A program made the position numbers and the translations under genes. Shown here piece by piece: positions 31,117-52,861 of a stretch of DNA of 64,000 nucleotides (position 1 is the stretch's first letter; the number at the start of each line of letters is the position of its first letter). The notes beneath the pieces are model-generated. The model saw only the letters and a list, made by a program, of their open reading frames with translations, was not told the DNA's origin and ran no database searches. Where the stretch lies: contig CM027383.1 in the NCBI GenBank assembly GCA_015680905.1, positions 38,190,501 to 38,254,500 on the forward strand. The letters are read 5' to 3'. The DNA is from Coptis chinensis. Lineage: Eukaryota > Streptophyta > Magnoliopsida > Ranunculales > Ranunculaceae.

Positions 31117-33057
31117 CTCCCCCTCAAGTTAGAGAGTGAATGTCAAGAACTCCCAACTTGTGAATTAATCTCAGAAAGGTGTCCTTGCCGAGAGGTTTAG
31201 TGAAGGCGTCAGCCACTTGATCTGAGGATGGAACGAATGTAGGAGATAGTAACTTGGCCTGTATCTTGTCGCGTAAGAAATGACAATCCAATTCTATGTG
31301 CTTCGTTCGTTCATGAAAACCTGGATTTTGAGAGAGATGAAGGGCGGCTTGATTGTCACAGAACATGTTCATTGGAGAAGGATGAGAAATGCCTAAGTCA
31401 GAGAGAAGATACTGCAACCATTGAAGTTCACACGCCAGGGTAGCCATGGAACGATATTCGGCTTCAGTAGAAGAACGGGATACAGTGCTCTATTTCTTTG
31501 TTTTCCAGGATATAGGGCAAGAACCAAGAAAAGTGCAATAACCACTAGTAGAACGACGAGTGATAGGGCAGCCAGCCCAATCAGAGTCACAGAAACCAGA
31601 GATGTGTAAAGAACTATTAGCGGATAAGAGAATCCCTTTATTGATTGAACCTTTAAGATATCGGAGTATACGATGATCAGCATCTAGATGTGGAGTCCGT
31701 GGGGACTGCATGAAACTGTTGAGATAATTTATAGAATAAGTGATATCTGGACGTGTAACTGTAAGATATAAGAGATGCCCAATCAAGCGACGATATACAG
31801 TAGGATCCTGAAGTAATGTGCCATCATCGGTATGGAGGTTGATGTTTTGTTCCATAGGGAACTCAGAAATATAACCACCAGTGGTACCACAATCAGACAG
31901 AATATCCAAAAGACATTTGCGCTATGTAAGAAATAATCCTTCTTTGGGATAAGCAACCTCGATACCCAAGAAATATTTTAGACGTCCCAAGTCCTTGATA
32001 TAGAACTTTGCTTCTAAAAATTGCTTCAAGTTCTGAATGAGAGATGGATTGTTGCCTGTGATCAGAATGTCATCCACATATACACAAGGACAAATGTAGA
32101 ATCAGAACCACAAATATTTGTGAATAGAGAATAATCATACTTAGACTGAGTGAAGCCGACACTGATAAGAGTGGTAGATAGTTTGGCAAACTATTGCTGA
32201 GAAGCCTGCTTGAGTCCATATAAGGACTAATTGAGGCGACATATCCTGTGCTCCCCCTGTTTGGCGAATCTAGGAGGTAAGGTCATATAAACAGTTTCAT
32301 CCAAATCACCTTGGAGAAAGGCATTGTGGACATCCAGCTGATGAAGAATCCAATGTCTGATGGCAGCAATGGAGAGAAGTAATCGAACATTGACTAATTT
32401 AGCAACAGGTGCAAAAGTGTCATGATAGTCTTGGCCTTCAATATGATTGTAACCCTTGGCAACAAAATGAGCTTTGTAACATTCAATAGAACCATCTGAA
32501 TGATATTTAATCTTGAAAACCCATTTACAATCAATAGGCTTATGATGAGAGGATGACGGAACAAGAGTCCATGTGTTATTTTGTTCCAAAGCTGCAATTT
32601 CAGCAACCATAACAGCTCTCCATTCTGAAATTTTGACAGCTTGAGAAAAAGATTTAGGAACAACTGAAGAAGATACTTTAGACAAAAAAACTTTATGACA
32701 AGTAGAAAAATTAGTGTCAGAAACATAGAAAGCCATAGGGTATGGAGTGGAAGACCGTGTTGTCCGATTGGATTAGGTTGGCCGAATGAGGGACTGTAGG
32801 TGCCTTGGTGAGAGTAGGACAGTGATAATCTTTGATAAGAAGTGGTGGGGGTTGTCGCACTCTAGTAGATCAAGGTGAGGTAGGAGGATTGAGGTGTGAT
32901 GGCTGAGGGCGTTCCGAAATTGCGAGAGACAGAGCTGTGGGAGTGAGAAGATTGTCAAGAGGGAGGGCGCGGGCATGCTCTGTTTGTACTGGAGCAGAGG
33001 GTGCGTGCGCTATATATACTGGAAGATGGGGAAGAAGAGAGCGCGTGGTATCTATGT
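31117..33057 (-). pseudogene. Copia RT and RNase H remnant
   Basis: Minus strand, reading leftward. The RT start is near 32736-32227, with WKTLV-type sequence (NNTWTLVPSS), KWVFKIKY, AKGYNHIEGQDYHDTFAPVAK and QLDVHNAFLQGDL. The catalytic YVDDILITGN lies near 32075 in another frame. RT thumb and RNase H follow at 31909-31124, with GHLLYLTVTRPDI, DSDWAGC near 31578, DNQAALHLSQNP and HIELDCHFLRDKI. Frameshifts near 32226, 31910 and 31490 break the polyprotein. The segment ends just before the polypurine tract, as expected for Copia pol. Confidence 0.92.
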
Positions 33058-33121
33058 TTGTATTGGCAGTAAGTTTATGAAATCTAGACTAGAGTACTTA
33101 TTTTACAAATCCTGTGAGAAT
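33058..33121 (+). mobile_element. Left piece of gypsy copy 2
   Basis: This 64-bp stretch matches the internal 3' region of gypsy copy 1 near 12030-12092 (cagtaagttt to cctgtgagaat). Its continuation resumes at 49319 beyond the CACTA element. The left junction with Copia is not an LTR end, so the gypsy 5' part has been deleted. Confidence 0.85.
33119..33121 (+). other. Target-site duplication aat of the CACTA element (left)
   Basis: The three bases aat here and at 49316-49318 flank the CACTA termini. The undisturbed site in gypsy copy 1 (near 12090) reads gtgagaatatagc, with one aat, as expected for an empty site. Confidence 0.9.
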
Positions 33122-33480
33122 CACTACACCATAATAGGCTATTTGCAATAGCAAAAAAGCGTTGCTAATAATTTTCGCAACGCTTTTTAAGTATTGCAAA
33201 TATGGCGTGGGTAAAATGTTGGAAATTTTTGCAACGGTTAGTAAGCATTACAAACAGAAATTTCCAACGGTTATTAACCATTGCAAACTGAAATTTGCAA
33301 CGCTTATTAACCGTTGCAAAAAGAAATTTCCAACGGTTTTTAAGAGTTGCAAATATTATTTGTAACAATATTATTTGTAACGCTTGTTTATGTTTGTTTG
33401 GTATCAAATTTTAGCAACGTTTTTAAATTTATAACGGTTATTATGAACCGTTGCTGATGGGTTGCAAATAATAAAAAAAA
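33122..33480. repeat. CACTA left terminus and subterminal repeats
   Basis: After the 17-bp terminal motif, a series of imperfect repeats with cores like caacggttattaa and gcaacgctt recur about every 30-40 bp in both orientations. In CACTA elements such arrays bind the element-encoded protein; binding here is inferred. Confidence 0.88.
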
Positions 33481-34140
33481 AAAATTATATTTTGTACCAA
33501 CCAGCTAAACTTGCCCCAACCAAGGTGAGAAAATGCTAACATTGTGTCAGCACAACTATAAATATCTGCTGGAGCCAAAGAGGCAAGGCTGAGGGACTAT
33601 CGGTTCATGGAGCTAGCCACAGGTTAAGATGAATCTACTACACCTATATCACTCGCTGAATCAAAGGGCCAATAAGTATCAGCAGATGAACCTAGAGAAA
33701 TCCCATCTGATTCCTAGCAAACATTCAAATCAAGATACACCAGAAGAAACATCAAGTAATAGCAAATAAAAATAGGAACAATAATCATCATAAACTAGAA
33801 TTACTGAGAATCTTCAGTACAACTAATTGTCATATATATCTTGCTCCAACAGATTTAAACATACTGAATCAACCGAAATCAAACTTTTTATCATCTATTA
33901 AGGTCCTAATTCACCACAAAAAAAACATGTCTTCATCATAACAATCTCCACCAGCACAACACGCCGACTCCACCCTTTAATGATACTGAAAAAGTGCAAA
34001 CAATAGCAACAAATCATAATATGCATCTTATTAATTCAATAGCCTTGGAGAGAAAGGAAATCATGTCCCTAATTTAATAATCCACTTTCTTTCTTTTGAT
34101 CTAAAAGACTAAAACCCATTAGTGTCAACTAAAAACATAC
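33481..34140. other. Element cargo of unknown origin
   Basis: This lies between the left subterminal repeats and the RPS29 exon. It may include the RPS29 3' end or another captured fragment. A plus frame containing CQHNYKYLLEP near 33540-33600 was not identified. Confidence 0.4.
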
Positions 34141-34671
34141 CTTGATAAAGCCAATTTCCTTGGCATTGCTTCGAAGCTTGCACTGCAAAGACATGAGACC
34201 ATACTTGCGGATCAACCCATGGGGGTTTCCACAAACTCGGCAGCACGAAATTCAAGGCTTCAAGTCAATAAAAAATAAAAAATGAAAGCATGTTCTCCAC
34301 AAAAAGGATGAACCATAGACATAAATTGACGTAATGCAATTCAATGAAGAAAGTAGAGGAACATGGTTTTATCTTCCCCTGAATCAACATATAAAGTTTT
34401 GCATCAAACACTATGATTGGCTGAGAGATGCAGTGCACATACACTAAAAGCTTATGCATTCATTGTTTGAACATGGGTGGTGTCTGCCTCCCGAGTACAC
34501 AAATGTAAGAGGTGTTTACATTTTTTAGTAATAATTCTTAGCAAATTATTAACATTAGTACCAATCCCTTTATAGGATTTACACGATTTCAAATGCAAGA
34601 TAGTATTACAACACAAATCACAATAAATAATAATGATTCGATCCCTAAACTAATTATAGTCTGTATACTAT

Positions 34672-36317
34672 TGACACTCACTCCTTTTTGTGTGTGTAGA
34701 TGGTATATGGATGATGTAGATAGATGATGGTCGTTGAACAAATAGAAGTGTATCAAAACCTAATTATCCCTCGATAAATAAAGGATGAGTAGGGTATCAT
34801 TTCACTTTTAAGTGTATGTTTATATGAAGGACATGACTGGAAAGGGGGTTTAAGGGATTAAAAACTATGATTATAGAGATTTAGATTCTAATGCTAAACT
34901 AAACTAAATTAACTAAACTATTGGGAGTTTATAAAAGAGGGAATTCAAGAGATTAGAATCTATCAATACTTTTAATCTATGACCTTCTGCTTCATGGTTG
35001 TTCTTACAAGTAGACTACAATTAGGCAATCGAGCAAGTGCCGATTCCCTCTTGGATGAAACATCATTAACAATTAACTCTACTCAAGGTTGTTCCTATGT
35101 TCATGTTACTAGTATCTTCTTTCCTTTTATGTGAGCTTGGGCAGCTATTCAATGAATCACCATCTAAGGCAAACACAATGAATACTTCCCCTTACTCTAA
35201 AACAGTACACAACTAGAAGAAAAGTAGAGAATAATAGTATAATATTCAATTACAATAAATAAACCCTTATTCTAGCATTATATTCAATTGCAATAAATAA
35301 AAGCATGTCACTATCAAATATTCAATTGCAATAAATAAAACCCTAAGCTAGTATGATATTCAATTGTAATAAATAAAAACCTTAATCTATACTTCCATCC
35401 CCTGGTATGGGCAATGGAACTAATAACTAAAAACATAAAGAACTAACCTGATTGAAGAACACCATATACCAGAAGAATCATTAAACCTTCAGCACCGGCT
35501 TCATCTCCTCCCTTGAAGGAGAAGATTAGCCTTCCATATAGAAGGAAGAACACGAAGAACGAGAAGAAGAAGAGTCGAAGAACATAATATTAGAAAGACT
35601 AATTTATTAAGACTAAGCTAGTTAAAACCGATATTTTATTATTAATCTCTCTCTGCCTCAAGTTCTGGAGACAAGAATATAAGTGAATTGGCAAATTACA
35701 TGAGGCACTTAGGTCCTCTATTTATAGGGGTTACAATGAGCTCTAGAAGCATTCCAAACAGTCATTTGTTTCCTAATACAAATAGACTTCTTCCAGAGTC
35801 CAACTTCATCTCCAAAACTGAGAAGGAATTGGCTCAATGTCGATTCATCGTCACGGGCGCACTATTCATGCATCGCCCAGACTTAATCAATGCATCACGG
35901 GCGCTCGATCCATGCGTCCCAGACTTGATCAATGCGTCTGGACACTCTATCTATGCGTCCCATACGCGTAAGCCTATTTTGTCTCTTCTGCTCTATCCTT
36001 TTATCATTTTTTGTGGGCATTGGTCCAAGCAACAAATCCTTTGTCCTTGGGCTTCCAAATAGGCTTTAAAATAGGTCCAAGTCGCATCTTTAATAGCTTC
36101 AATTCCTTGGCCTTTTCCATGATTGTCCACGGGCTTCCCATGTGATCCTTAATGCTCCGTATTGCTCTGTTTTACCCATTTTTCTCTAATATTCTACAAA
36201 ACTCTCTTTTTCACCTGTAGAATCTTAAAACATAACTTACAAACACTATTAGTCCACTAAGATGGCTAAACAAGAGGCATAATTGAGGGTTAAATTGCAC
36301 TTTTTGATCACTTATCA
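34672..36317 (-). repeat. 3' LTR of the non-autonomous element
   Basis: On the element strand it runs tgataagtgatcaaaaag to gagtgagtgtca. It contains short tandem units around gcgtcccagacttgatcaat near 35870-35970. It differs from the right LTR by a small number of substitutions and short indels, implying a fairly recent insertion. Confidence 0.92.
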
Positions 36318-37193
36318 CAACTCCCAACTAGCCTTTTGCTAGTCTCTTAGCAAATAAGATAAAAAAATTAGATAAGTGATCAAAATTACATCCTAAAAAA
36401 TAAAATCCTAACTCACTTTTGCAGGCATCGCGATTGCATTTACCATATGCAACAAGGCTTTAAACCTTTAAGTTCCCCAAAAAGGACGAGTTATAGTCTC
36501 GTGAGGGTTTTCAGGTGATATACCTACAAAATCAATCAATAGCATGTTCAAGAATGATAGTATTTTTCAGAGAGAGAAATTCTTTACCACTTAGTGTTTA
36601 CTCCAACAGACGGTATCCATTGCTAACTATATTGCTACAAAGACTCATAGATTATGATAGGAGATAGTAAAAATTGACAAAATTCTCAATCAAGGCTTAT
36701 GTTTATACTTAGTCAATCTCCTATACTCTCCTATCCAAGAAACGGAATCCCTAGTTTACCTTTAGATAGAAAATCTCGACTTTCAATCCTCACCGGTCAT
36801 ACTCTCAACAAAGAATCTCTTAGAAGATGGTCTACTATTTTACCTCATGTATGTGGGGAAAAGAATAATGCATACGAACATCCCACATACTACCTTGAAA
36901 AATAGACTTCTGAATGAAAGTAGTCTCATGGAAAGAATGTCAATCACATATGAAGTGTCGGGTCCTTCACTTTAGCATCCTCTCACCTATTCTAGATTTC
37001 GTACCATACTGTAGTGATAAGTCATGGATTGTAACTTGGCTTGGGTATTGGTTTATGAAGGAAAGGTAAAAAGGATTCTAAGGTTATTTCTGAAAACACT
37101 AAGGGTTTTGCTTCTTTCTTTGGAAGATTTCTTCAAATTCTATATTGCAGAGAAAATTCTTCCTTTGTCTTAGCTTTTCCATCCATTATGTTC

Positions 37194-37235
<42 letters not shown>

Positions 37236-38409
37236 TCAGTGGTATATCCTTGATTAGTACTAGATATGCTTGTTTTCCACTAGCTTCTTTCACTTTGAAC
37301 AGAATGATGGTCTTCATTGTATCTCTCTGATATTTCCTTGTAATCTTCCTTTTGTGGTATTTCTTCCTCCTTGTGCCCCTCGTATTCTCAAAACATATGG
37401 GTATGGCTGATAAAGATTTTGGCTATACTCCTTGTCTGGAGTTGGGTAAAGGATAAAGGGTTTTGGAAGAAAATGGCTTATTGTAAGGCTCAAAAAGGTT
37501 TAATATGATGGTCCTACTAGGTGGGATAAAGGCTGAATGGGTTCACTACTTGACTTATCAGTATGATACTCTGTTTTGAATAGACTACAAGACCTAATGG
37601 CTATCTCCCCAGTTGATGTCACTTCATGATTAACCAAATCAACGAATAATGAGACTATATTACAACGACATAAAGAAATGAAAGATGTTGAGTCACTAAG
37701 ACTCGGATTTTTCTCATAAGAACTCTCCAAAAAATGGGTATAAAGCTCAAGTCTCACAGGCTAAGTCTAAAAATTCTACTTCCAGTTTACTAGGGGTTTA
37801 AATCTCTCTTCTAGCAAAAGTACACAAAACTGACCAAGTACTATGGTGGTGCCTTGATAAAGAATTCTATCAACAAGAACTATGTCCGAGCATAATAAAT
37901 AGTCTAAGCGGTAATGAAATCAATAATATCAACTATCTATCAAACTCAACACTAAGCAGTATAGAATCTATATCCCAGACTCATCATTAAAATTCATTTT
38001 TCTCATGCTGCTGATATAGAAAAAAAATATTTTAATTTTTGAAAACTAATTTTCAAAATTCATTTCTCAAGTACACCCTCCCCCTACTTATGCATGCATT
38101 GACCTCAATGTATAAAGAAGTAAATGAAATGGATGAGAAAAAGGTAGGATATTACCATTGATGCCGAATTTTTAGGTCTTTTTACGTCAGATCCCCAAGA
38201 CGTAATGTATTATCAATTTGGAGTGAGGAGATCAGATTTTCTTACCCAAATCTGACGAATGTTTGGAGGACGAGGAGGTCTCACCTTGTGGGTTGTTAAA
38301 AATACTCCTTGATATGCTGGAAAGATTACTGGTGAAGTTGCTTCTCTACCTTGAACTATTTCAGTCGATGATTGTGTGATAGGCCTTGTGGTTCCCCCAG
38401 TGTAGAAGA
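36318..38409 (-). other. Long non-coding 3' region of the LTR element
   Basis: No domain is recognised. It contains a run of about 33 T at 37199-37231, and the sequence next to the 3' LTR (gttgggagttg on the minus strand) probably contains the polypurine primer. Confidence 0.5.
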
Positions 38410-39105
38410 TTGATGAAAATCTTTCTTTCTAACGGGACAATAGTATCTGATGTGCCTTTTACCACCACAATAATGATAATGGATGTCTGGCTGACTGTGC
38501 TCAGGGTGGGCAGTAGACTAGTTCACATACTTATCTCGTTCAGACAATGATGGTGTAGAAGAAGCTTCAACAGTGCAATTCTCCTTATCAATATGGTTCA
38601 CTTTCTGCTTCTGAAGACTCATTTCAGTTTCTAGATTCTGTTGTTTTTCCAAAACTTCTTTAAGCTGATTCTCTAGCAACTGATTTTTCTGGGTAGATGT
38701 CTGTTGTTCATCCTGAAATGTAGAGTTAATCTTCTCAAGATATGATACTCTCTCTATCAATTTTCCATTCTGCTCACTTAATTTCTGAATTTTCTGCAGA
38801 GATTCCAAGAACATGGCTAGCAACGCCTCTGTGGTGGGGTTCTCAGGTTCATCACAATTTTCTATAGATTGAGCACTTTCAATTGTATCTTCGAATGGGA
38901 CGAATTCTTGTATCATACTATCAAGGAAGTACACCTCTTCACCTTCGGTGTCATCACAATCCTTATGCAACAGGTGAAAGATATTTATGTCCATGGACAT
39001 CTTACCAAAGTTGATCTTCATTTCACCGTTGTAACAATTTATCAAAGCTTTTGCAGTAGCAAGGAAAGGTCGGCCTAGAATAATTGGAATTTTATCAAAG
39101 GCTTC
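38410..39105 (-). pseudogene. Protease C-terminus, coiled coil and zinc-knuckle remnant
   Basis: Reading leftward from the stop at about 39105, the protease continues as IPIILGRPFLATAKALINCY. It is followed from about 38800 by a long Glu/Gln/Lys-rich heptad region (LQKIQKLSEQNGKLIERVSYLEKI in part) and, after stops near 38515, by a CCHC-like YCGGKRHIRYYCP motif at about 38410-38465. A knuckle after the protease is unusual, because in gypsy elements it normally precedes it. The coiled coil plus knuckle may have come from another element. Confidence 0.65.
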
Positions 39106-41340
39106 CTAGGTGTCTATCACAATGAAATCCACTGGATAGTAGAAATTGGCTATTTGAACAAGAACATCCTCAACTATGCCTTTGGGAATCTTGGTGAAAC
39201 GGTCAGCTAACTTCAATTTGACTTTTGTAGGCTTTAGGTTATCCAAGCCCAACACTTGGTACACATGATATGGCAAGAGATTAACACTAGCACCAAGGTC
39301 TAAAAGAGCATTACCTATGAATTTTTCTCCTATCTTGCATGATATTGTAGGATTTCCTGTATCTTTAAGCTTGACTGGAGCTTGCTGATGGATAATAGAT
39401 GTTGTTTGTCCAGCTAGAAACGCTCGCTTTGGAACATGAGTACTTCTCTTTATGTTGCATGCATCCTTCAAGAATTTGGCATATGATGGCAACTGCTTGA
39501 TCGCTTTGAGAAAGGGGATATTGATGTTATCTTTCTCAAATGCCTCCTTCATCTCTAAAAATTGCTTGTCCTTTTTGCTTTGAGCAAAAAATATAGGAAA
39601 ATGTGCCTTTGGTACAAACACATCAGCATGTGTCTGCTATTCTTTCTCTTTGGCATTCTTGCATATCTTGTCTTGGTTGTCTTGACAAATGGGAGTTGAA
39701 AGGATTTCTCCCACTTCCTTTTGAACTTCATTTGAAATCTTGACTGATTGCTCTGTAGCAATGTCATCATGAGAAGGTAAGTCAGTCTTGTTGTCAATCT
39801 TCAATCCTGATCTGAGAATAGTAACTGAGCTGACATGATCATGGAGGTGATCAGTACTAGAAGTTGTCCCAATGTGGCATACATCTTCACTCCTCAATAT
39901 TGGTTCCAATAAGCTAGGTTGAGTGGCTTGTGTCTTTACAGACAAAACAGTTGTGAGTTTGTCGACCTTAGCCTCTAGAGACTCCATTCTAGAACATTGA
40001 CTTGCCTGAGATTGCTGGAGATTGAGTTGAGACTATGCAATAAGTTCTAGAACACTTTCAAACTTCTGATTTTTCTGTGATAGCAAAGTAATTGCATTCT
40101 CTAGGTTGGCAGGTGTGGCATAATTTCTCCTAGGATCAGGCACTAACTCTCCACTTGTATTGGAATTCTATTGAGAGTATAACTATTGTTGAGGAACCAA
40201 CTGTGAAGCTTGACTTGTCTGTGGAATATAGCTTTGATCTTGTGAACCTGGGGGTCCATCGTTCTGTCTCCAATAATTGCTTTGAAAGTTATTACCACCT
40301 TGGTTGGGCCTCTGAAATGAGTTAATATTGTACTCTCCAACTGATGCATGTTGATAGTAAACAGGACATTCTAGAGTTGCATGAGAAGTATCCGAACAGA
40401 CTTCGCAGCATTGGCTAGCTTGCATGATTGGGAAAGATTTAGCTTGAGACTTGTTGATCTTGGAGGGATTCATGGAGAACTGATTGAATTTCTTACTAAA
40501 AATTTCAATGCTGGTGGCTAGGCTGGCCAATGTAGACTTCAGTTCTTGATCTGCTTGTTCATGTGCTTGGTAGCCAAATTGCTTTGGCTCCCCCTCCATG
40601 CTAGCGACATCCCCGTTGCTAGTAGGCCATTGTTGTGTTTCTTCAGCTAAATTCTCGAGAAAGTTGTAAGCTTCCTCTCCATCCATTGATGTAAACTTGC
40701 CTTTGTGCATTGACTGTATCATCTGCTTGTTCATCATCGAGAGTCCTCGATAGAAAAAATGAGCCAGTGTGCTCTTGTCGTATCCATGATGTGGACATGA
40801 GACTAGCAGATTATTGAATTTCTCCCAGCTTTGATGATATTCTTCAGTCACCTTCCCTTTGAAATTGTTAATGACTTGCTGCATGGCATCTGTCTTCTGG
40901 GGTGGGTAGAACTTGTTCATAAACTTTGTTCTCAACTTCTCCGAGTTGTCTATTGAATTGATCGGCTGTGCAGTTAACCATTCAGATGATTTACCTTCGA
41001 GTGAGAGTGGGAACAGAATGATTTTGATACTTTCATCCCTAATATTCTGGTTCTTGAAAGTTCTGAGGACTGATAGAAATTTGTTCATGTGAACATAAGC
41101 CTGAACATTGTCTGAACCGTTGAACTTTGGAAGCATAGAGATTACTGATGCTCTAAGCTTAAACTAGTTAGCTTCGTTTACGGAAAAACAATACTCTGGG
41201 TGGGTCTCCAATGATTGGCGAATAGAAATCGCTCAACTTCTTCCTCTGTTGTGGTTGCATGGGTGGGATAGCTTCGAATTATTTGGATTCATAACACCTC
41301 CATCATTGCTTGCGGCCATTGTTTCAATCTTGTCTAGTAT
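39106..41340 (-). pseudogene. Gypsy-type Gag and aspartic protease remnant
   Basis: Gag is at about 41340-39640 (FNGSDNVQAYVHMNKFL, then LPLSLEGKSSEWL, FYPPQKT, CPHHGY, HFFYRGL), followed by a Cys/His segment (CCEVCSDTSHATLECP, near 40395). The protease follows at 39621-39106 with the active-site motif ALLDLGASVNLLP near 39300 and LKLADRFTKIPKGIVEDVLV. The domain set matches Athila/Tat or related plant gypsy elements. Stops near 41220, 41170, 40170 and 39105 interrupt the frame. No RT, RNase H or integrase follows. Confidence 0.88.
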
Positions 41341-41954
41341 TCTTGTGAGTCGGTTGTTAAACCTTGTCCATTTGTTGTGTTTCTTACCGGACGATGATAT
41401 GGACGACGGGGCATACACTAGAAAATGTTATGCGAAAATGACGAAAAACTATCCTACTATGCTTGAATGCAATTAAACTAATATGCAACTATTCTAAATT
41501 ATACTAATATGCAAAACTACTTTCCTTCAACTGGGTTGGGCTTTGCAGCTAGTATCTCACCCGTTGTCTAAAGCTGTCTCTTCTAGGGTTATGGTGAATC
41601 ACTTGGATTGCTTAAGTACCACGTCCCACAGACGATAGTCTGTTTGTCAAGATTTAGACAAGCTAGAAACACTAGTGTTTGATTTTTCGCTGTGTTGGCT
41701 TACAACTTTAATTGTTGAAAAGATCCTAAATGCAATTATACTAGAAAGCAATAAAACTAAACTAATTATGATGCAACTAAACTAAGAATGAAATAAAAAG
41801 AATGAAGATTCGACTAACCTGGATGGTAGATCTTGTCTTCGAGATGTCCTTTAAACTTCTCTCTTTCTCAAAAGGATGGATGATGCGGCTAAAATTACCT
41901 TAAGATCCAAACTTCTAATCTTGAAAGAAAATGTTAAACATAAACAACTTAAAA

Positions 41955-41968
41955 CGGCAAATGCGCCA
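41955..41968 (-). promoter_or_regulatory. Primer-binding site of the LTR element
   Basis: On the minus strand tggcgcatttgccg lies a few bases after the 5' LTR. The tggcgc start is characteristic of Athila/Tat-type primer sites. The exact tRNA cannot be named with confidence. Confidence 0.7.
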
Positions 41969-41975
41969 TTTGATT

Positions 41976-43617
41976 TGACACTCACTCCTTTTTGTGTGTG
42001 TAGATGGTATATGGATGATGTAGATAGATGATGGTCGTTGAACAAATAGAAGCGTATCAAAACCTAATTATCCCTCAATAAGTAAAGGATGAGTAGGGTA
42101 TCATTCCACTTTTAAGTGTATGTTTATATGAAGGACAGGACTGGAAAGGGGGTTTAAAGGATTAAAAACTATGATTATAGAGATTTAGATTCTAATGCTA
42201 AACTAAACTAAATTAACTAAACTATTGAGAATTTATAAGAGAGGGAATTCAAGAGATTATAATCCACCAATACTTTTAATCTATGACCTTCTGCTTCATG
42301 GTTGTTCTTACAAGTAGACTACAATTAGGCAATCGAGCAAGTGCCGATGCCCTTTTGGATGAAACATCGTTAACAATTAACTCTACTCAAGGTTGTTCCT
42401 ATGTTCATGTTACTAGTATCTTCTTTCCTTTTATGTGAGCTTGGGAAGCTATTCAATGAATCACCATCTAAGGCAAACACAATGAATACTTCTCTTACTC
42501 TAAAATAGTACACAACTAGAAGAAAAGTAGAGAATAATAGTATAATATTCAATTACAATAAATAAAATCCTATTCTAGCATTATATTCAATTGCAATAAA
42601 TAAAAGCATGTCACTATCAAATATTCAATTGCAATAAATAAAACCCTAAGCTACATGATATTCAATTGTAATAAATAAAAACCTTAATCTATACTTCCAT
42701 CCCCTGGTATGGGCAATGGAACTAATAACTAAAAACATAAAGAACTAATTTGATTGAAGAACACCATAAACCAGAAGAATTATTAAACCTTAAGCACCGG
42801 CTTCATCTCCTCCCTTGAAGGAGAAGATTAGCCTTCCATATAGAAGGAAGAACACGAAGAACAAGAAGAAGAAGAGTCGAAGAACATAAGACTAGAAAGA
42901 CTAATTTATTAAGACTCAGCTAGTTAAAACCGATCTTTTATTATTAATCTTTCTCTGCCTCAAGTTCTGGAGACAAGAATATAAGTGAATTGGCAAATTA
43001 CATGAGGCACTTAGTTCCTCTATTTATAGGGGTTACATTGACTCTAGAAGCATTCCAAACCGTCATTTGTTTCCTAATACAAATAGACTTCTTCCAGAGT
43101 CCAACTTCATCTCCAAAACTGAGAAGGAATTGGCTACAATGTCGATTCATGCGTCTGGACGCACTATTCATGCATCGCAGACTTAATCAATGCGTCTGGA
43201 CGCTCAATCCATGCATCCCAGACTTGATCAATGCGTCTAGGCCGCTCGATCTATGCGTCCCAGACGCGTAAGCCTATTTTGTCCCTTCTGCTCTATCCTT
43301 TTATCCTCTTTTGCGGGCATTGGTCCAAGCAACGAATCCTTTGGCCTTGGGCTTCCAAATAGGCTTTAAAATAGGTCCAAGTCGCATCTTTAATAGCTTC
43401 AATTCCTTGGCCTTTTCCATGATTGTCCACGGGCTTCCCATGTGATCCTTAATGCTCCGTATTGCTCTGTTTTACCCCTTTTTCTCTAATATTCTACAAA
43501 ACTCTCTTTTTCACCTGTAGAATCTTAAAACATAACTTACAAACATTATTAGTCCACTAAGATGGCTAAACAAGAGGCATAATCGAGGGTTAAATTGAAC
43601 TTTTTGAGCACTTATCA
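41976..43617 (-). repeat. 5' LTR of the non-autonomous element
   Basis: Partner of 34672-36317. On the element strand it begins tgataagtgctcaaaaag, exactly as does the LTR that starts at 63899. Confidence 0.92.
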
Positions 43618-44104
43618 ACTATGAAGTAGAAAAAGTATTACCAAGTGCGAGAACCGGAACCGTAGGTCTTAGGATGAGAATTCCACACGTTCGAGTGCCC
43701 TATCTTCAAATTTATCACCGAGAGAAAAAGAGGCTCAAGAGTGCCAAAGTCCCACATAAAATAGAGTTCCAAAAGTTTTAATCATTTACCCTGTGGAAGA
43801 TGCATCCAACTCTTTCATAGATAACGTAATTGTGATCATTGAAACATGACATGTAGTTTCTAGGATGCAAAAAGTATAAAAAAAAACAAAATGTATTTGT
43901 AAGATATCATTTCAATGGCAAAATGCTTGTTTCTCATGGGAACAACAAAGCACAAACAAAAATTGCTCCTTGGAAGAAGGCCTTCTTCCAAAGGTTCCCA
44001 CATGTCGGTAGTATCAGTTGATCCAATAGATGTGTTCTGATGGAGACCAGTAATCCTTCTCTGGAAAAAGGAAATTCATCTTAGATAATGCATGTATTAA
44101 GTGT

Positions 44105-44215
44105 ATTAAGTGCAGGTTCATCAAGGTAATAGTCATCTCTATAAAGTGCCAAAGCATGACCAATAAAGTCCACTGTGTTGTCATCGAGACCGTATTTCCT
44201 AATTAAGAAAAGGTT
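44105..44215 (-). pseudogene. Captured Rab GDP-dissociation inhibitor fragment
   Basis: Rab GDI extracts GDP-bound Rab GTPases from membranes. A minus frame reads [20 protein letters not shown], then [10 protein letters not shown], almost the consensus of plant GDI. It lies in the same frame as, and directly downstream of, the RPS26 exon at 44332-44255, joined by about 15 unfamiliar codons. After DEPAL the match is lost in a short ttaatacac-type repeat and reaches a TAA. Only part of one exon is present. Confidence 0.85.
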
Positions 44216-44254
44216 CTTGAAAACATTGAAAATGATATTGAGGCTACCTTCATT

Positions 44255-44521
44255 GACACAAGCTTATTGAACATCTCTAACAACAGCTTGTTCAACTATG
44301 TTCCTCACCAAAAACCTCTTAATAGCCTTGTCCTATTATTATTATTATTATTATTATTATTATCCAATTAATAAATAAACACAGATCTCTAATATTACAA
44401 TAAATAAAAATTGAGGGGATCTAATAACCTTGGGGCAGCATTTTCCACAGTTGGAACAACGGATGAACTTGACGTGACCACGACCGTGCTTGTAACGGCC
44501 ACCATTCCTACACTTGAACGT
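44255..44521 (-). pseudogene. RPS26: Captured RPS26 (eS26) fragment
   Basis: eS26 is a zinc-binding protein of the 40S ribosomal subunit. An exon at 44521-44429 reads [19 protein letters not shown], then [12 protein letters not shown], keeping the CxxC pair. It is flanked by a TTGTAG acceptor and a weakened GTTATT donor. The following exon, 44332-44255, reads DKAIKRFLVRNIVEQAVV, then RDVQ, a TAA where Glu is expected, and ACV. The intron holds an (ATT)n microsatellite at about 44333-44362. The sequence right of 44525 is rich in gagaga runs and may be the gene's own leader or promoter. The remaining C-terminal half is replaced by the Rab GDI fragment. Confidence 0.9.
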
Positions 44522-44840
44522 CTACAAATATAAAAAAAAAAAATGTAATATTAGTAATTGAATTAGTAAATAGTGTTTCATTTGGAAAGTAGGGGGGATA
44601 GAAAGAAACGGCGTACGAGATGATGATATAAAACTGGATTTGGATCGAGATGATGATTTTGAGGAAAAAGAATTCCAATTTTAGGGATTTTGAAATGCGT
44701 ATGAGATGATGATATAAAACTTGAGCTTCTTGAATAGTGAGAGCGTAGTGGCAGTGAGAGAGAAAGGGAGGAGACTGGAGAGTGTAGCGGCCGTGAGAGA
44801 GAGAGAGAGGAGAAAGAAAAGTTACGTTTTATATTTCAAT

Positions 44841-45018
44841 TTGTAACACTTCTCGAACTATTTTTAAGCATTAGCAATTAATTCCTAAAATTCACCCAAA
44901 TAAAGTAACGCTTTACAACATTGCTAACGCTTATATAGCGTTGACAACTTGCTAACGGTAAATAACCGTTGCAAAGCAAAACAGTTGCATGTTGCAAATA
45001 TCCTATTATGGTGTAGTG
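44841..45018. repeat. Internal CACTA right terminus
   Basis: This closely matches 49138-49315, from ttgtaacacttctc to cctattatggtgtagtg. The three bases outside (aca) do not match the aat at the left end of the element, so this end did not make the last insertion together with 33122. Confidence 0.92.
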
Positions 45019-45139
45019 ACAGTTAGTAACTTTAAGATGTTATGCTTTTGGTAAGCGTGTTGAATATGTCATCCGAATCACTTATATCTTAATTAATATT
45101 ACATACGACACCATGTTTTCGAGAGATGGAAAAAATTTA

Positions 45140-46616
45140 GGGTTATATTGACATACCCCACCAAGAAGTTGCAATTAGGATTACCCCCATAATAATTGAA
45201 ATTAGGATTTCCCCCACTTGACAATCAATAGGAGTCAACTAACAGGTTTCCGTTAGTTGGTAGTCAATGATCATGAATTGTCCTAAATACCCTTTGTGCG
45301 TGGAAATTACGAAATTACCCATTGACACCGCTTCAAAGCCCACAACTCAAAAAGCCCAGTTGAAATTAGCCACTTTAAAAAGCCCACAACTCAAGCCCAC
45401 AAATTTGGGTTTCTCTCGATTCTGAATAGAAATTCAACACTCAAACAACCCAATTACTTCTTCAAAAAAAGCAGAGTAATCAAAAACCTTTTAATTTGTT
45501 TTACCAAAAATGAAGGTAATCAAGAGTTGTTTTCTCCTTTCTAAAATACCTTCGTTTTCTCCCCAAAACTGAAAATACAAAACTTTAAACTACCAAACAT
45601 CTCATAACTTCAAGAACAATTATTACGGGACAATCAAATTGTCCTACATTTCCCAATGATGGTTTCCCATCCCCGGATCAAATCGAAAGCCCCACGGTTT
45701 TGCGAGAGACTAAAAATACCAACCACGACCCTAACTAAAAATAACACCATTTCATAAGCTTCACTCCATGTCGACCGAAAACCGACAACAAGTAAATTAT
45801 ACAAAGACATCTCCTCAAGTTTATCCAAATCAAAGCAACACCATCTTACGTAATAATCCGATAACACATCTTCCATTTTCAGTCCTCGAGACTTGCTTTC
45901 CACTTTCCAAAATACGTAATAATGGGCAACTTTCGGTATCTACGAGCCACGACCCAAAGTAACTTTTCCACAAACGTTGACCTTCATTACCAGTTCAAAG
46001 AACCCCATTAATCTTTTCTCTATCGCGGAGAGTGTTCCTTTTAGGCATCCATTGTATGTAAATCCGCGTGTAATCTCACACGTCTTTGTGACCCCAATCT
46101 ATATGCCTCGGTCACACATCTCTCTATCTATACCTTTGAGCTCTTCCTCACCAACAACCTTCCGTTTTCCACCCATTTCTACACGAAGCTCCTTTTGGGC
46201 AACTAGGCGACCCATAAGTGAGGAGGTTCTCTCCTTCACAATTTCATGTTTGATTTTAGATTTAGGTATATTTGAAGCGAAAAACTTCCCCAATATTATG
46301 GAGCAACCCACGGTTAAATGGATTCATCTTCCCATCATACCTATAGCGAAAATCATACCTATACCAAAAGGCTTGAGTTCCAAAAGGCTTGAGTTGTGGG
46401 CTTTGAGCGATTAATTTCAATTTGGGCTTTTGAGTTGTGGGCTTTGATTTAAGTAATTTCCACGCATCACTTATATTTAGGACAATTCATGATCATTTGA
46501 CCAGTACGACAACCATTTTTCGTTAGTTGATCCTATTGGTTGGGGAAAAATTTCAATTATTATGGGGGGGTAATCCTAATTGCAACTACTGGTGGGGGGG
46601 TATGTCAATATAACCC
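45140..46616. mobile_element. 1.48-kb MULE-type element inside the CACTA cargo
   Basis: The inverted ends begin gggttatattgacatacccc (first g at 45140 may vary by one base) and extend about 150 bp. The flanks carry a perfect 9-bp duplication, aaaaattta, at 45131-45139 and 46617-46625, diagnostic of Mutator-like elements. No transposase is present. The interior (about 45300-46480) has open frames on both strands (for example 45977-46414 plus and 45634-45903 minus) but no recognised domain, and could be a captured gene fragment. Confidence 0.9.
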
Positions 46617-46933
46617 AAAAATTTAATTAAAAAAGTCACTGTAGGCATTCATTTTTCACACTGATAAATCTTAGGGTCTCTTTCGGTCAAAATTGTTAAC
46701 ATGTAAGATAAGAATTTAGGCGCTACATCATTCATCGTAAAAAAAAATAAAACTAGTAGCGCAAACAAACCCATATATTAGAGAAGAAAACCAGCCAAGA
46801 GAACACCAATGTAAAGAAAGGAACTGTGGTGGTAACAGGACGGATGATTTAAGAGATTACGTAGGTAATTTCCTATTGTAACACATTGAACTTCATGAAC
46901 TTCAGGAAGGCAGTTGTAACACATTGAACTTCA

Positions 46934-49136
46934 TCAACTTCGGGAGAGCACTCCAGCTACAAACAAAAGATTTCTTCGAGAGAACTGCACCTGGAACCAC
47001 AAATGATATTTGATTATCACTCTTCTAATTGTATATGAACAATAATATATCTGTAGAACAAGGATATATCTGTAGAACAAGGGTATATCCACATATTTAC
47101 CTGCACTGTGTAAACAGGACTACACTTGGTTGGTAGAGTTTTCAGGGATCTTAATCTGTTTGTACAGCCCACTGTGCCAATCATATTTAATTGAATCAGC
47201 TGAAAATGTTTCTTAACAAACAAGGCTGAAACAGATAAACTGGATGTATTACAATGTATATTTGTTGTATTTGACTTACTTCTCATCCATCTTTGGTGCG
47301 TTTGTGCTTGCAGTGACATCCCATAACTTGACTATGCAATCGGCAGATCCAGAAGCAAGGAGTGAACTTTCACCACTGACATGTCGATCGAGTGGTTGAG
47401 TATAAAAGATAGATTGCTCTTGTTATAACACATTACATTAAAATAATGTAGGCAAACTTTAAAAAGCTTCCTCCAGTTTCATAGCCTTCCTACTTGAAAC
47501 CAAGTGTCCAGACACAAGAGGTGTGCCCCATTAAAGGTGTAATACAACGACCACTTGAAAGATCCCACATCATGATGGTGCCCTCCTCATCACCTGATGC
47601 CATATACCGCCCATCAGGAGACATTGCCAAAGATAGTATCATACTCCTGTGACCAATAAAGATCCGTACACACTCTCCACTTTGTACATCCCACAATCTC
47701 ACGGTCTTGTCACTAGAACCAGTTGCAATGTAGTTGCAGTTTGCATGCCAACGGACACACTAAATCATTATAACAAATAGCAATTAGTTAATGATTCAAT
47801 ATCATATTTTGAGAACGCCAAACTACCTGGCTTCTGCATAAGACCTGTTTTGATAAAATGTGCACTAAGTTGTGGTTATTCCATAAGGAATTAGAAAATC
47901 AAAAGTGTATGCAACTAAGTAAGAGTCTTGTAGATAAAGAAGACCATCTTTACACGAATAAAATTTTTTGTTTCTCTAGAAGAAACATAACAAGAAAGTT
48001 CAAGCTTTAACTTGTCACTCTCATATCCAATTATTTCTTTTATCTCTTTTTTTACTATTTTAACTTCTTGGGATGTCCTACCCGCAACGGATTTACTGTG
48101 TGTGGGAGTGTGGAACTACAAGGGAGAGGAGATAGTGAACTTGAACGGTTACTTTCTAAAAGCCCATTTTCAATGTAAAAAACTTGAACTAAAAACCTCT
48201 GGTTGTTTAGATTTGATTAGGCTGCCATCAGGATTCACAATGGGACCCCATAAGCGTATCTCCAATGGAGGCTGTAGAGTTGCACCTCCACATAGGTGCC
48301 ACTAGAATTTTACAACTCCTACAGTCTAATGTACAATATAAAGATATCCACACTATATAGGTTCCAATGGGAAATTTTAACAAAATTGGAACTTTAAAAC
48401 ACAGGTGTCACTTGGAGAGAATTCCTAGTCATGATTAAAGAGGGATGTCACTTGGAATTACTAATTTTAAACTCCCACGTCACTCCAAGTGACATCCGAG
48501 CTTATTTTAAGTTGCCACTTCACTCCAAGTGACACCTGGGTCTTTTATTAATTTACATCCAGGTTAAGAATTCTCCACTCGATCTATTAGTTTTTAGCTA
48601 TTATCTACGGTTTGCATTCTCCATTGGGAGGGTATTTTTGAGATTGGGTGTGTAAATTTTACATCTTATACGATTTACACCCCCACCAGAAATGCCCTAC
48701 ATAACCACATAACCAACACAAGATTTGTACAAAAAAAAGTACTCACATCAACATCAGATAAATGCCCTGCCATTATTCTTAGAGGTTGTATCCTGTCCAT
48801 GGACCAAATTCTAGCAGTACAGTCATGTGAAGAGCTAGCAAAATAGTGCCCCATTGGACTAAAATGCAACAAAAATAAAAATTAGGATAACAGATAAAAG
48901 GAAAATGGCAAATCTAATGAATGATACGAATTCAGCATGATAGTGAAACCATGAGATCGGAGCAGCTTATATACCTTCATAACAACCAACTAATGTAATT
49001 GTAAGAAAAGAAGATGCACTTCTTATTGCCATCAGAGGAAACGTTTGAGCACTATTAGTTGGCAGAATAGGTTTTTACCTAAACATCCCAAACTGGATAA
49101 TTATGCCCTTTGTAGCAAACAAGATTCGCATTCAAG
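46934..49136 (-). pseudogene. TAF5: Captured 3' half of TAF5 (TFIID subunit 5)
   Basis: TAF5 is a WD40 subunit of TFIID (and SAGA in many eukaryotes). Six exons are recognisable, right to left: 49136-49078 (LNANLVCYKGHNYPVWDV), 48858-48747 (GHYFASSSHDCTARIWSMD), 47760 to about 47494 (WHANCNYIATGSSDKTVRLW onward), 47375-47280 (SLLASGSADCIVKLWDV), 47199-47101 (NRLRSLKTLPTKCSPVY) and 46990-46934 (QFSRRNLLFVAG, ending at TGA). Splice sites are mostly canonical. The first exon ends TAG|GTAAAA where Gln (CAG) is expected, a nonsense change, and the 47494 boundary also looks damaged. The N-terminal half is absent because the CACTA end starts immediately at 49137. About 300 bp of 3' flank is included. 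Confidence 0.92.
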
Positions 49137-49315
49137 TTTGTAACACTTCTCAAACGCTTTTTAAGCGTTAGCAATTAATTCTTGAAATTCACCGAGATAA
49201 AGTAACGCTTTACAACATTGCTAACGCTTATGTAACATTGGCAACTTGCTAACGGTAAATAACCGTTGCAAAGCAAAAAAGGCGCGTGTTGCAAATATCC
49301 TATTATGGTGTAGTG
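49137..49315. repeat. Outer CACTA right terminus
   Basis: The terminal and subterminal repeat block ends at tagtg (49315) and is followed by aat. It abuts a TAF5 exon directly, marking the capture boundary. Confidence 0.93.
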
Positions 49316-49318
49316 AAT

Positions 49319-51991
49319 ATAGCTTTAAGGCCTTATATGGGTGAAATATTTGAGAAATGACACAAGGGAGAAGTAAATTCCGAATAGAGAAATAACACAT
49401 CCACTTGCTTGATTACTATACCATATTCTAAGCGAGAATTTAGGCCCTTTTTGGATCGATATAGCTAGAAATTCAAACCTATATGAAATTATTTTCCGCT
49501 AGTCGCCCCTCTGAGCCTTTTTTTAGCTTTTCATAAACCACAAATCCCTTACCCTTTTACAAAACAAAAATCAGCCTACCCATTTTTGAATGAGTCTGAG
49601 AATAGAGATGAAATGCAGAATAGAAAAGAGAAAGACTTGTGAAACCAAGAATTTGTTAGTTGCTTCAAATAAGAAAATAAAGTTTCCATCCAAAGAAAAG
49701 AAAAAAATAATAAAAAATAAATAAAAAGTTAGAACTCCAAAAACAGAATCAAAGGAGTCAAAAGCCAAAAGAAAAAGGAAAAAATGACTAAGGATGGAAA
49801 CAAAGTGTAGAAGCAAAGTAAGAACAAGGTTTTTCTCTATTTACATAATATGAAGACTCTATTATCTCAGACTTGTCTATTTTGAATATCCATTTCCTTC
49901 ATTCTTAAACCATCACCTAATCACCGCAATACCTAATAAAGACCTCTAACTCAATTAGGAATAGGTTAGTGTGATAGTAAGTGGCAGATATGTTTGACCG
50001 ACTTCAGCTTCCTTGTACGTTATTGAGTTTGTAAGGTAAAGTGTGCCCACTACACACTGGAGTGAGCGAAACTTGAGTGGAAAAATCAGAGTGTTTTTGT
50101 CTTGACATATATGTGAGGACCTACTTAAGGACGTTATTCCAAAGTTTCATAAACGGACCTGTTATTGCATTTCATAGCATAGTTCATTATATATATATAT
50201 TTATCCGTAGATGATTGATTATTATGCAAGCATTACCTTAGATTTCGAATTGATTATTCTGTATTCATTGCTAGTGAGATGTATAGATATCTGAGAATAA
50301 ATTAGGAAACAGTAATGTTTATTTCTTAGTCGATGTAGTATAGATGAAGTTTGTGAGTACCTTATACGGAAAACTCTCACGATATTATAACTCGTCCCCT
50401 AGGGAATTTCTAGTAGTTTAAGGCCTTATTACATATGGTAAATGCAATCACACTCAGCGAAATAGATTAGTTAGAACTCCATTTTTTGTCACTTAGTTTA
50501 ATTTCTCATATTTGCTTGAGGACAAGCAAAATTCTGTTTGGGGGTGGTTTGATAAGAGCCCAAAACTATAGTTTTAACCATTTAATAATATTACATTTAG
50601 ACCAATTATGTGTATAATAAATAATAATTAGTACTGTTTACATACTTTTGTATATTTCATGTCTTGGAGTTAAATATGTGAAGAAATATGTCACTTTTGC
50701 AAGAGAAAGGAGCAAAGGTTGGTTGCTAAGAAGTTCTATGGTTAAAACCTAAGTTTCAAGGAGAAAAAGCCTTTTTAAAGTCCATTCAAAGCTGAAAAGT
50801 CAAAGTCAACGCGGGTAAAAAAAGAGCAGAAAAGTCAACAGAACTTCCACAGGCCATATCTTTGGACATAGACTTTAGAATTGGGCCTATTATATGTCAA
50901 AACGACCAGCTCAGAAAGAGATTTCTAATGGTTTAATCCTTGACCCAATCAGAGTAGTCAAAGTGGATGAAAAGGGTGTTGTAGTAAATTTGCATAGAGA
51001 AACCCTTTTTGGACTTAAGTAATTAGGTTTTGGGCTTAATTTAGTGGCCCAAAATATAGCTCCAAAGCCCATGCACGAAATTGTAACCTAACCCTCTCCT
51101 ATATAAAGAGGGTAAAGGCTAAAATAAAATTTGGCTACTCCCCTCTTTAGTTTAGTTTTAAATTAGAGTTCTCTCTCTCTCTCTCTCTCCATTTTTAGGT
51201 TTAGTTTATGAGTTTAGTTTGTAACCTCCATTAGAACCTTTTAATAAAAGCTTTAGTTTATTCAATTTAATTAATTCTTCTTTACATTATGTCTTCCTTT
51301 CATTATTTTAGTGTAATTAATCCAATAATATTAGGCTAATCCCCCCTATTAGAGGGAGTGATTATGAAGCCTAATGAAGAATAGATTGATTAGTATAATT
51401 ATTTAATTTTGTATGTATTTCAATGAGTTTAGTTTATTGTATGACTTCCAAAATAAGCATATAGTAAATTAAACTAGGGATTGTTGTAATTAAGTCGAGA
51501 AACTTGGTTGTAATAATCCTACATGCTAGTAATAATGACTATAGAGATGTAGGTTGTTGTTAGGGATGATAAAGTTTGAGACTTTAGGTTGGATCATTGT
51601 GTGAAAACCTAAAGATGATATATTTTCAATGAATACTTCTATTCTTGCTTGAAACTAATCATTAGGTGGTTTGATTACTTTTCTCTATAACTTTCTTTTC
51701 CATCAAAACCCTATTTCTATTAGTTTAGTTAATTTAGATTTATTTGAATCTGTAGTATAATCGTAGAATAGAAATCTCACAACATAATATTACTCTCACC
51801 ATTGTTTCTTTGTGTTTGATTAGTTTGATTCTATTTAGTCTTGGTAGTTTAGGAGTGGAACGAATCCGTACTCTTTATATTACTTCATTATTATTTGAAA
51901 GTAGGAATATTGATCTAAGCACTTGTTTAGTTGATTGATTATTTGTGTTTACGCATAGATAGTTAGTTTACTTAAATTTGTCAATATTACA
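49319..51991 (+). mobile_element. Right piece of gypsy copy 2 with 3' LTR
   Basis: This continues the segment at 33058-33121 and parallels 12093 to about 14670. Landmarks are the cttgaggacaagcaa motif near 50515, polypurine tttgggggtggt, and the LTR from 50550 (tgataagagcccaaaac). A TATA-like ctatataaag lies near 51100 and a CT run near 51170-51190. The LTR ends about 51991 (ttaca) against Copia gag. pol and the 5' LTR are absent. Confidence 0.85.
50550..51991 (+). repeat. 3' LTR of gypsy copy 2
   Basis: About 1.44 kb, homologous to 13350-14670 but with clear divergence and indels. It includes a segment (agaaagagatttctaatgg) matching the copy 1 LTR. Confidence 0.82.
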
Positions 51992-52861
51992 GTGGTTGCA
52001 GAATGGACGAGCGCATGCGCTCTGGTTGCCCTGTATTGGAGGGTGCGCGCTCTCTTGGCTGAGGCTAACCATTGTTGTGCTACAAAGGTTTAGACGGGCC
52101 AGATGTCGAAGAAGAAGCCCAGTTGGTCTTTTGAAAGTGAGTACTCAGGGCAGCAACGTCTAGAGCAGAAGGAAGATAGAGTGCATGAATCTCTTGTTGC
52201 TTCTCCTCCTGTCGGATTAAAGAATAAATCTTGGACATACGAGGAAAATGATCCATTAAGAGAATTTGACTGCGGATGGATTGAAAACAAGCATTGAGGC
52301 CTTGCATGAATTTCATAGAATGACCATTTTCAACCTCTTTGGCAAAAATAGATGCATGACCACAAGTACAAGCAGACATAGTAGACAAAGAACTTAATTC
52401 ATCCCATAAAGATTTAAGCAAAGTTAAATAAACAGATACCGGACGATTGTCTTGCTTGAGAAGAGTAACGAAATCCTTCAGTTGAAAAACCTTGGGTGCA
52501 TTAATTTGTGAAAAACGATCACCTAGATCTTTCCAGATTTTGGATGCAGAGTCGGCATAGAGGATGCTTCCACGGATATCTGGAGAAATAGAATTGAGAA
52601 TCCATGAAGCAACAAGGTCATCACAACGCGACCACTTGGATTTTTTTTAGGAGTGCTGGGAGATGTGATAGAGCCATCGACAAAACCAAACTTATTCTTT
52701 GCTCGAAGGGCTCTAGAGATAGACTATAACCAAGTCGGATAATTGTCACCGGATAACAGAGGAGATACGAGAATAGCCATGAGGCTATCTGAGTGGTGGA
52801 CAAAAAAAGGACCATCAGAACCTGGAGGAGAGTCATTATTAGGGTTTGAGGCGTCAACCAT
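51992..52861 (-). pseudogene. Copia Gag remnant
   Basis: Minus strand from ATG 52861 (MVDASNPNNDSPPGSDGP). It continues through LLSGDNYPTWL, a stop, then ALRAKNKFGFVDG. Later it reads LWDELSSLS, FAKEVENGHSMKFMQGL and PRMSKIYSLIRQEE, typical of plant Copia Gag (UBN2/retrotran_gag). The frame breaks near 52620 and elsewhere. At the left edge it reads RPFCNHC, the first half of the CCHC knuckle, and stops there because the gypsy LTR begins. Confidence 0.9.

Follow-up and report, generated by a model that had tools for sequence, protein, structure and literature searches.

A CACTA element of Coptis chinensis with pieces of several host genes between one left and two right ends, and its sister copy in the same genome

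How a single transposon comes to hold pieces of several host genes, and whether it has moved with all of them on board, is the question raised by a 64,000-nucleotide stretch of the Coptis chinensis genome (the window; G000:C7:38190501-38254500, within a genome of 936 Mb). At 33122-49315 this stretch contains an insertion that a sequence-only reading had described as one CACTA unit with a matching aat duplication, carrying minus-strand pieces of four host genes. We read it, with a probability of about 0.85, as a mobilised composite, a non-autonomous Pack-CACTA element belonging to a large family.

The insertion begins with the left end CACTACACCA at 33122, directly preceded by AAT, and finishes with the right end TGGTGTAGTG at 49315, directly followed by AAT; the sequence from 33122 reads CACTACACCATAATAGG and the sequence ending at 49315 reads CCTATTATGGTGTAGTG. 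Positions 33121-33148 pair with 49289-49316 in an inverted match of 28 bases (96%), and the left arm contains subterminal direct repeats with a spacing of 33 bases. A self-BLAST of the window aligned 12019-12090 with 33048-33121 (89%) and 12087-13519 with 49315-50715 (82%), and across the joined flanks this paralogous stretch reads GAGAATATAG, with a single AAT where the insertion has two. Since the site at 12019-13519 is empty and has only one AAT, the limits of the insertion are fixed as 33122-49315. The description as one CACTA unit with a matching target-site duplication (TSD) is therefore borne out by the match between its terminal inverted repeats (TIRs), the AAT on both sides and the empty site. 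The features delimiting the element are as follows.

33119-33121, unstranded: left TSD AAT, the same three bases on both sides and single in the empty site
33122-33480, plus strand: left CACTA terminus (L) with its subterminal repeat arm, the end far from the tnp2 gene start in relatives
49137-49315, plus strand: outer right terminus (R2), lying closest to where the tnp2 gene starts in relatives
49316-49318, unstranded: right TSD AAT, the same three bases on both sides and single in the empty site
12019-13519, plus strand: paralogous empty site with continuous flanks and a single AAT, from self-BLAST and alignment

The TIRs of the form CACTA...TAGTG, the 3-base TSD, the subterminal repeats and a tnp2-type transposase encoded by relatives that share these ends place the element in the CACTA superfamily. 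Helitrons have neither TIRs nor TSDs, and a Helitron was rejected since both are present here. The window holds one stretch in two diverged copies (12019-13769; 33048-33121 / 49315-51082) in the same orientation, about 78-89% alike and 21 kb apart, one of which is occupied by the CACTA element while the other is empty.

Between the ends lie pieces of RPS29, a probable ALBA-family gene, Rab GDI, RPS26 and TAF5 as well as an additional right end (R1). Introns are present, and every piece is on the minus strand, as had been claimed and as the exon coordinates confirm. In the following lines L031 and L032 are two further copies and L039 is a parent-like RPS26 gene.

33487-34671, minus strand: RPS29 piece made up of part of intron 1, exon 2 (34141-34239) and the sequence downstream of it
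43623-43749, minus strand: RPS29 piece with exon 1 (43641-43700)
43750-44094 (edges approximate), minus strand: probable ALBA-family piece with exons 43971-44060 and 43789-43863
44095-44215, minus strand: Rab GDI piece with exon 44099-44197 and the beginning of the adjoining intron
44217-44605, minus strand: RPS26 piece with exons 44429-44515 and 44267-44332, its intron shorter than that of L039; not in L031 or L032
44606-44840, plus strand: subterminal sequence common to RPS26-type elements and, from 44631, also to the outer R2 side of L031
44841-45018, plus strand: inner right terminus R1, arm and TIR ending TGGTGTAGTG, flanked by ACA
45019-45130, unstranded: spacer of 112 bases between R1 and TAF5, also in L031
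46617-49136, minus strand: TAF5 piece with exons 49082-49126, 48747-48860, 47496-47756 and 47279-47374, introns kept; truncated at 49136 relative to L031

Comparison with solved structures matched the RPS26 piece to an eS26 chain (E=4.5e-30), the RPS29 piece to a uS14/S29 chain (E=1e-24) and the GDI piece to its counterpart (E=6.6e-9 in PDB, 3.7e-11 in Pfam). The TAF5 piece matched a TFIID subunit 5 chain (E=3.9e-75) in a nearly full-length alignment; generic WD40 proteins outscore this match, and the name TAF5 depends on how completely TFIID subunit 5 chains cover the piece. Pfam supports RPS29, GDI and RPS26 and assigns the TAF5 piece to WD40 families. Among the Pfam matches listed for the 38 open reading frames (ORFs) of at least 50 residues in the unit were WD40, GDI and Ribosomal_S26e, and there was no transposase among the families listed (25 of 50). 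The comparison of RPS29 with its parent-like gene covers 33729 onwards, and 33487-33728 is known as a stretch common to other family elements. All four donors named by the sequence-only reading thus stand on structural or Pfam matches, while its count of four gives way to a probable fifth. The two exons between RPS29 and GDI encode RRITGLHQNTSIGSTDTTDMWEPLEEGLLP and LETTCHVSMITITLSMKELDASSTG, and we take them as probable members of the ALBA family. A peptide joined out of two related loci matched Pfam Alba (E=7.6e-13), and the peptide of the window alone gave neither a Pfam Alba match nor a relevant solved structure. The fifth donor was probably an ALBA-family gene, a naming weaker than that of the other four. 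A 112-base stretch including an ALBA exon (window 43979-44090) also occurs at 20 places in the genome, at 88-95% identity and outside this composite.

Evidence for mobilisation of the whole also came from the genome, which was searched with the left cargo and with TAF5 using a search that skips very common words. Copy L031 (C7:55344501-55350300, completed by the stretch L034) contains L, RPS29, ALBA, GDI, R1, spacer, TAF5 and R2 in 5638 bases, is flanked by the TSD CAA on both sides and has flanks dissimilar to those of the window copy. Its own TSD and unrelated flanks mean that two sites received the whole span from L to R2 as one unit. The unit L-RPS29-ALBA-GDI-R1-spacer-TAF5-R2 has thus moved as one piece to two unrelated sites, past an inner right end. 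That both termini are mobilised together, on which the sequence-only reading depended, is established by the empty site in the window and by this second full copy, in which both termini and the cargo order recur and RPS26 is absent. A segmental duplication of the window copy was rejected as the source of L031, given that the flanks share nothing and the TSDs differ. Copy L032 (C4:17.17 Mb) has the same cargo order with 44922-45107, and hence the inner end R1, deleted. The RPS29-ALBA-GDI joint was found at three places in the genome, namely the window, L031 and L032 (39 of 39 candidates scored), while R1, spacer and TAF5 edge occurred together only in the window and L031 among the 40 of 794 candidates that were scored.

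Specific to the window copy are RPS26 beside R1, an internal deletion at the TAF5/R2 joint and the later insertion of a long terminal repeat (LTR) retrotransposon and of an element resembling a Mutator-like element (MULE). The TAF5/R2 joint shows a further internal deletion relative to L031 at a short common TTTGT. Exon 1 and exon 2 of RPS29 are separated by the retrotransposon at 34672-43617. The element spans 16.2 kb because of the two later insertions, which together account for about 10.4 kb; without them the CACTA unit measures 5757 bases.

34672-43617, minus strand: LTR retrotransposon in RPS29 intron 1, with LTRs at 34672-36317 and 41976-43617 that are 95.9% alike
34667-34671 and 43618-43622, unstranded: TSD ACTAT of the LTR retrotransposon; the L031 copy has one ACTAT there
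45140-46616, unstranded: MULE-like element with TIRs and the 9-base TSD AAAAATTTA at 45131-45139 and 46617-46625

The ORFs of the retrotransposon on the minus strand are, as named by eye, presumably gag/protease-like. A Pack-MULE has MULE TIRs and a TSD of about 9 bases around its cargo; this class was rejected for the present element, whose cargo lies between CACTA ends with the MULE-like element merely nested inside. Elsewhere in the window, 63896-64000 is an LTR end of the same retrotransposon family in the opposite orientation, 92-93% like 36216-36320 and 43516-43617, and 31124-32772 and 52080-52646 hold, on the minus strand, reading frames that are presumably Copia-like polymerase and gag-like.

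Parent-like genes for the cargo were sought in the same genome, and those of TAF5, RPS29, RPS26 and GDI are located on different chromosomes. The parent-like TAF5 gene, L033 at C3:5.40 Mb, aligns colinearly with L031 2673-5516 (89%) and extends past both captured edges; at its position 4001 there is one CACTACAACA string whose continuation is unlike the family ends, and no partner CACTA end was present within the 4.1 kb read. For RPS29 the parent-like gene (L038, C2:112.92 Mb) has its two exons in a single stretch with no CACTA ends in 2 kb, for RPS26 (L039, C9:65.28 Mb) the exons are accompanied by a longer intron with no CACTA ends in 1.8 kb, and for GDI (L059, C4:108.33 Mb) the piece and its adjoining intron match at 90-93% with no CACTA ends in 1.2 kb. 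L039 is the candidate parent among several RPS26-like places, those read being L039 and the elements L035, L036 and L040. Candidate donors of the ALBA piece are at C7:72.81-72.84 Mb and C6:743844. A further TAF5-like place at C2:42517069 was returned by the genome search. The four parent-like loci of RPS29, TAF5, GDI and RPS26 on C2, C3, C4 and C9 are separate and free of family CACTA ends in the stretches read. As parental introns are kept at least partly for TAF5, RPS29, RPS26 and GDI, the source was genomic DNA, as had been claimed. Host gene pieces between the ends, cargo taken from genomic DNA of known donors (candidates in the case of ALBA) and mobilised copies make the element a Pack-CACTA.

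An ordinary chromosomal locus at which these genes simply lie next to each other is refuted by the scatter of the parent-like genes over C2, C3, C4 and C9, by the empty site and by L031 with its different TSD. Equally refuted is an assembly artefact joining unrelated pieces, since copies diverged by about 4-9% have the same joints at C7:55.34 Mb and some of them at C4:17.17 Mb.

The cargo looks like decaying passenger sequences. Between the window and L031 the TAF5 exons diverge by 4.62% and the introns by 3.55%, one L031 exon has a 2-base gap, and purifying selection on the TAF5 exons was not seen in this comparison of exon and intron divergence. The RPS26 piece contains a stop. A 94-base piece of a TAF5 intron (48373-48466) recurs at 96-98% at C5:36611833, C1:83132012, C9:57621307, C9:77493959 and C8:40789936, the first four of these copies being located about 1.6 kb inside listed left ends.

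The R1 TIR is complete in the window copy, and R1 and R2 are 90.9% alike by self-BLAST. The TSD AAT belongs to the outer right end, R1 being followed by ACA instead. In a tree of the right arms, window R1 paired with L031 R1 (support 0.92) and window R2 with L031 R2 (support 0.73, branch length near zero). We suggest, tentatively and with the odds slightly short of even, that the composite arose by fusion of two neighbouring members of the family. Two members would have lain side by side, and the transposase, encoded by relatives such as the element L027, would have brought together a left end belonging to one of them and a right end belonging to the other, with loss of the inner left end. Growth of Pack-CACTA elements by fusion of neighbouring insertions has been proposed (PMC8903248) in a report that describes fused elements in groups AB and BB of a rice Pack-Mariner and, in the legend of its Fig 3A, mobilisation with internal ends deleted or mutated.

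The ACA beside R1 also bears on a nested origin, in which one CACTA element inserted whole into a TAF5-carrying CACTA element and a later deletion removed one left end, so that R1 would be what terminated the inner element on the right. This is a possible but somewhat less probable course of events: it yields the same final order with one left and two right ends, and ACA would be half of the duplication made by the inner element, but a second left end flanked by ACA is not visible, and the evidence does not separate nesting from fusion of neighbours.

Several observations weigh against a mobilised composite formed from neighbours. L031, the second full copy, lacks 12 bases beside the TIR of its inner R1, which agrees with the published idea that inner ends need to be damaged, and the completeness of R1 in the window is one of sequence. 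In L032 the 5.7 kb that were read contain neither a recognisable left end nor an outer right end, which makes this copy a relic and not a third shown transposition. Finally, the genome searches found no copy of either half alone with both of its own ends, so that fusion of two neighbours is not directly seen.

RPS26 probably followed a different route from the rest of the cargo. In L035, L036 and L040 RPS26 is contiguous with the right arm as in window 44217-45018, and these elements hold more of RPS26 on the left than the window does. The R1 arm sites of the window are of the type found in L031 R1 and L032 R1, unlike those of the RPS26-type elements. At the GDI/R1 joint L031 and L032 retain 33-34 bases of the GDI intron, which are also in L059 and are missing from the window. 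The absence of these bases indicates that the RPS26-bearing form of the window is derived and not the ancestor of the L031/L032 form. Judged by these junctions, the window lineage most likely acquired RPS26 second-hand out of another Pack-CACTA, the copied stretch reaching to the right-arm edge. The RPS26 block would have been copied from that element during break repair, which would have started by right-arm homology and finished by end-joining at GDI. Less likely is a history in which the unit had RPS26 from the start and L031 and L032 lost it, since these copies keep GDI intron bases absent from the window; such a history stays viable if both forms stem from a longer ancestor.

A survey of the family placed the composite among its relatives. 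The left end had 885 first-look candidate places in the genome, of which 40 were scored, the window included; 20 others were read as 10-kb stretches (L011-L030) together with an element on C2 (L009). The right arm was present in the expected orientation in 16 of the 20 survey loci (all except L013, L024, L028 and L029), and 15 of these 16 had an exact 3-base TSD, L030 being counted with a changed first base allowed and L022 being not exact. L009, with ATA/TTA, is likewise not exact. L015 has two right arms, and the CTT duplicated at its left end agrees with the outer arm and not with the inner arm, which is flanked by AAA; a piece of a PPR gene sits between its two right ends. With the window unit and L015, an inner right end has been passed over in two different element types. 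L027 (8.9 kb, TSD AGG) is a transposase-bearing member with captured host sequence, having Transposase_21 (E=6.3e-51) and Transpos_assoc as well as a B_lectin piece, and L023 has a Transpos_assoc domain in Pfam. L009 shares the left 1090 bases with the window, after which RPS29 exon 2 is joined in frame to other exons; at L009 7591-7755 the KLGYCDTFHVEKFLEEHG exon is fused in frame with RPS29 exon 2. We take these fused exons to be FAB1 (Pfam Cpn60_TCP1; recognised by eye), and the exons near the right end of L009, also named by eye, are presumably from a receptor kinase.

Cargo blocks (matches of at least 150 bases outside the arms) are common to elements in varied combinations, and their direction is the same throughout the rows listed. 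Such sharing, and the likeness of the best-scored left arms in the genome to that of the window (84-92%), would also be expected if two members had recombined unequally through their similar left arms, with no error of the transposase. We regard this origin as unlikely: it requires elements close together or ectopic exchange, and it still needs the later transposition of L to R2, which is shown.

The shared direction of the blocks leads to the orientation of the cargo relative to the transposase gene. L027 carries its tnp2 domains, and L023 its Transpos_assoc domain, on the strand reading from the right end to the left end, which makes the right end the upstream side. ORFs of at least 64 residues were counted in 17 elements (L009 and the 16 with a right arm), a sample of the best left-end matches that is not random and whose elements share blocks and so are not independent. 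Outside the arms the transposase strand had 147 such ORFs and the opposite strand 85; in trimmed bodies the numbers were 156 and 87, compared to 71 and 72 in 60 dinucleotide shuffles, and the excess was observed in 16 of the 17 elements, L027 being tied. Pfam matches at E<=1e-4 among the 147 included Cpn60/TCP1, PPR, EDR1, kinesin, protein kinase, B_lectin and clathrin as well as transposase, RVT_3 and Exo_endo_phos, while the 85 ORFs of the other strand had no match at this threshold; four families at E up to 0.02 among them are read as chance. Matches were assigned to elements except for the clathrin ORF and a second kinesin ORF, and the two located protein-kinase matches and the located kinesin match fall under the curated cut-offs of Pfam. 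RVT_3 and Exo_endo_phos were left out of the donor count because they are possibly retroelement pieces. By our own grouping, in which L009/L012 and L011/L020 were each counted once, donors are oriented 13 to 0 on the transposase strand (eight further donors and the five of the window).

Splice-site patterns in the 17 elements and the window cargo were mixed overall. The 3' patterns TGCAGG (25 versus 6) and YTNCAGGT (22 versus 4) favoured the transposase strand, a T-rich 3' pattern was opposite (3 versus 9), and 5' sites were without clear strand difference (10 versus 7 and 16 versus 21). The other strand also exceeded the shuffles at some ORF lengths (249 versus 192 ORFs at 50 residues, 40 versus 23 at 80 and 14 versus 6 at 100), and its long ORFs may be coding or an antisense shadow. 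We consider it possible, though doubtful enough to be put forward only as a suggestion, that capture is strand-selective, with pieces kept only in the direction of the transposase gene, where they are spliceable as exons, and that composites are mobilised past an intact inner end, the outcome being shaped by transcription and not random. Cargo in the sense of the transposase gene may permit transcription and splicing, and transcription might shape capture, for example via avoidance of antisense RNA and silencing. No report of sense-only cargo in CACTA elements was found among the titles and abstract openings of the literature searched.

Capture of genes by plant CACTA elements, which the sequence-only reading took as established, is in print for several genes at once, as is growth by fusion of neighbours (PMC1947982, PMC8903248, PMC13317346). 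The Pack-CACTA or Pack-TYPE elements of Arabidopsis, maize and rice share the non-autonomy, the CACTA ends, the 3-base TSD and gene pieces from multiple loci, whereas here a sequence-complete inner right end was passed over and the recognised cargo is on the transposase strand (PMC8903248). Tgm-Express1 of soybean is likewise a CACTA element, with fragments of five unrelated host genes and their introns; it measures 5.7 kb, is located in a flower colour gene and has known chimeric transcripts, while the present element, known from its sequence, has a second right end and is accompanied in its genome by a sister copy (PMC1947982). The Tpn1 family of Ipomoea nil is described in similar terms: its CACTA elements number in the hundreds, most of them non-autonomous, their ends are conserved, their interiors are captured genic sequence, and tnp-bearing members are few (PMC5105172). 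Cactavine-5 of grapevine carries part of a PPR gene opposite to the transposase, in contrast to the PPR piece of L015, which is on the strand bearing tnp2 in relatives (PMC2528002). CACTA elements of Chenopodium also have captured gene fragments, named as Neprosin and AP2, with none of the five donors described here among the names given (PMC8978399).

The window element is a known kind of event, documented here to an unusual degree by a sister copy, by donor genes and by an empty site in one genome; the less expected features are the inner ends that were passed over and the co-oriented cargo. Together the donors, the complete inner end of the window, the end trimmed by 12 bases in L031, the deleted end in L032 and the second-hand cargo provide a series for the growth of Pack-CACTA elements, and the window/L031/L032 series makes the neighbour-fusion model of gene capture testable within one genome. 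If sense-only cargo were to hold true in a full census, it would mean that the survival of a capture is decided by whether and how the element is transcribed.

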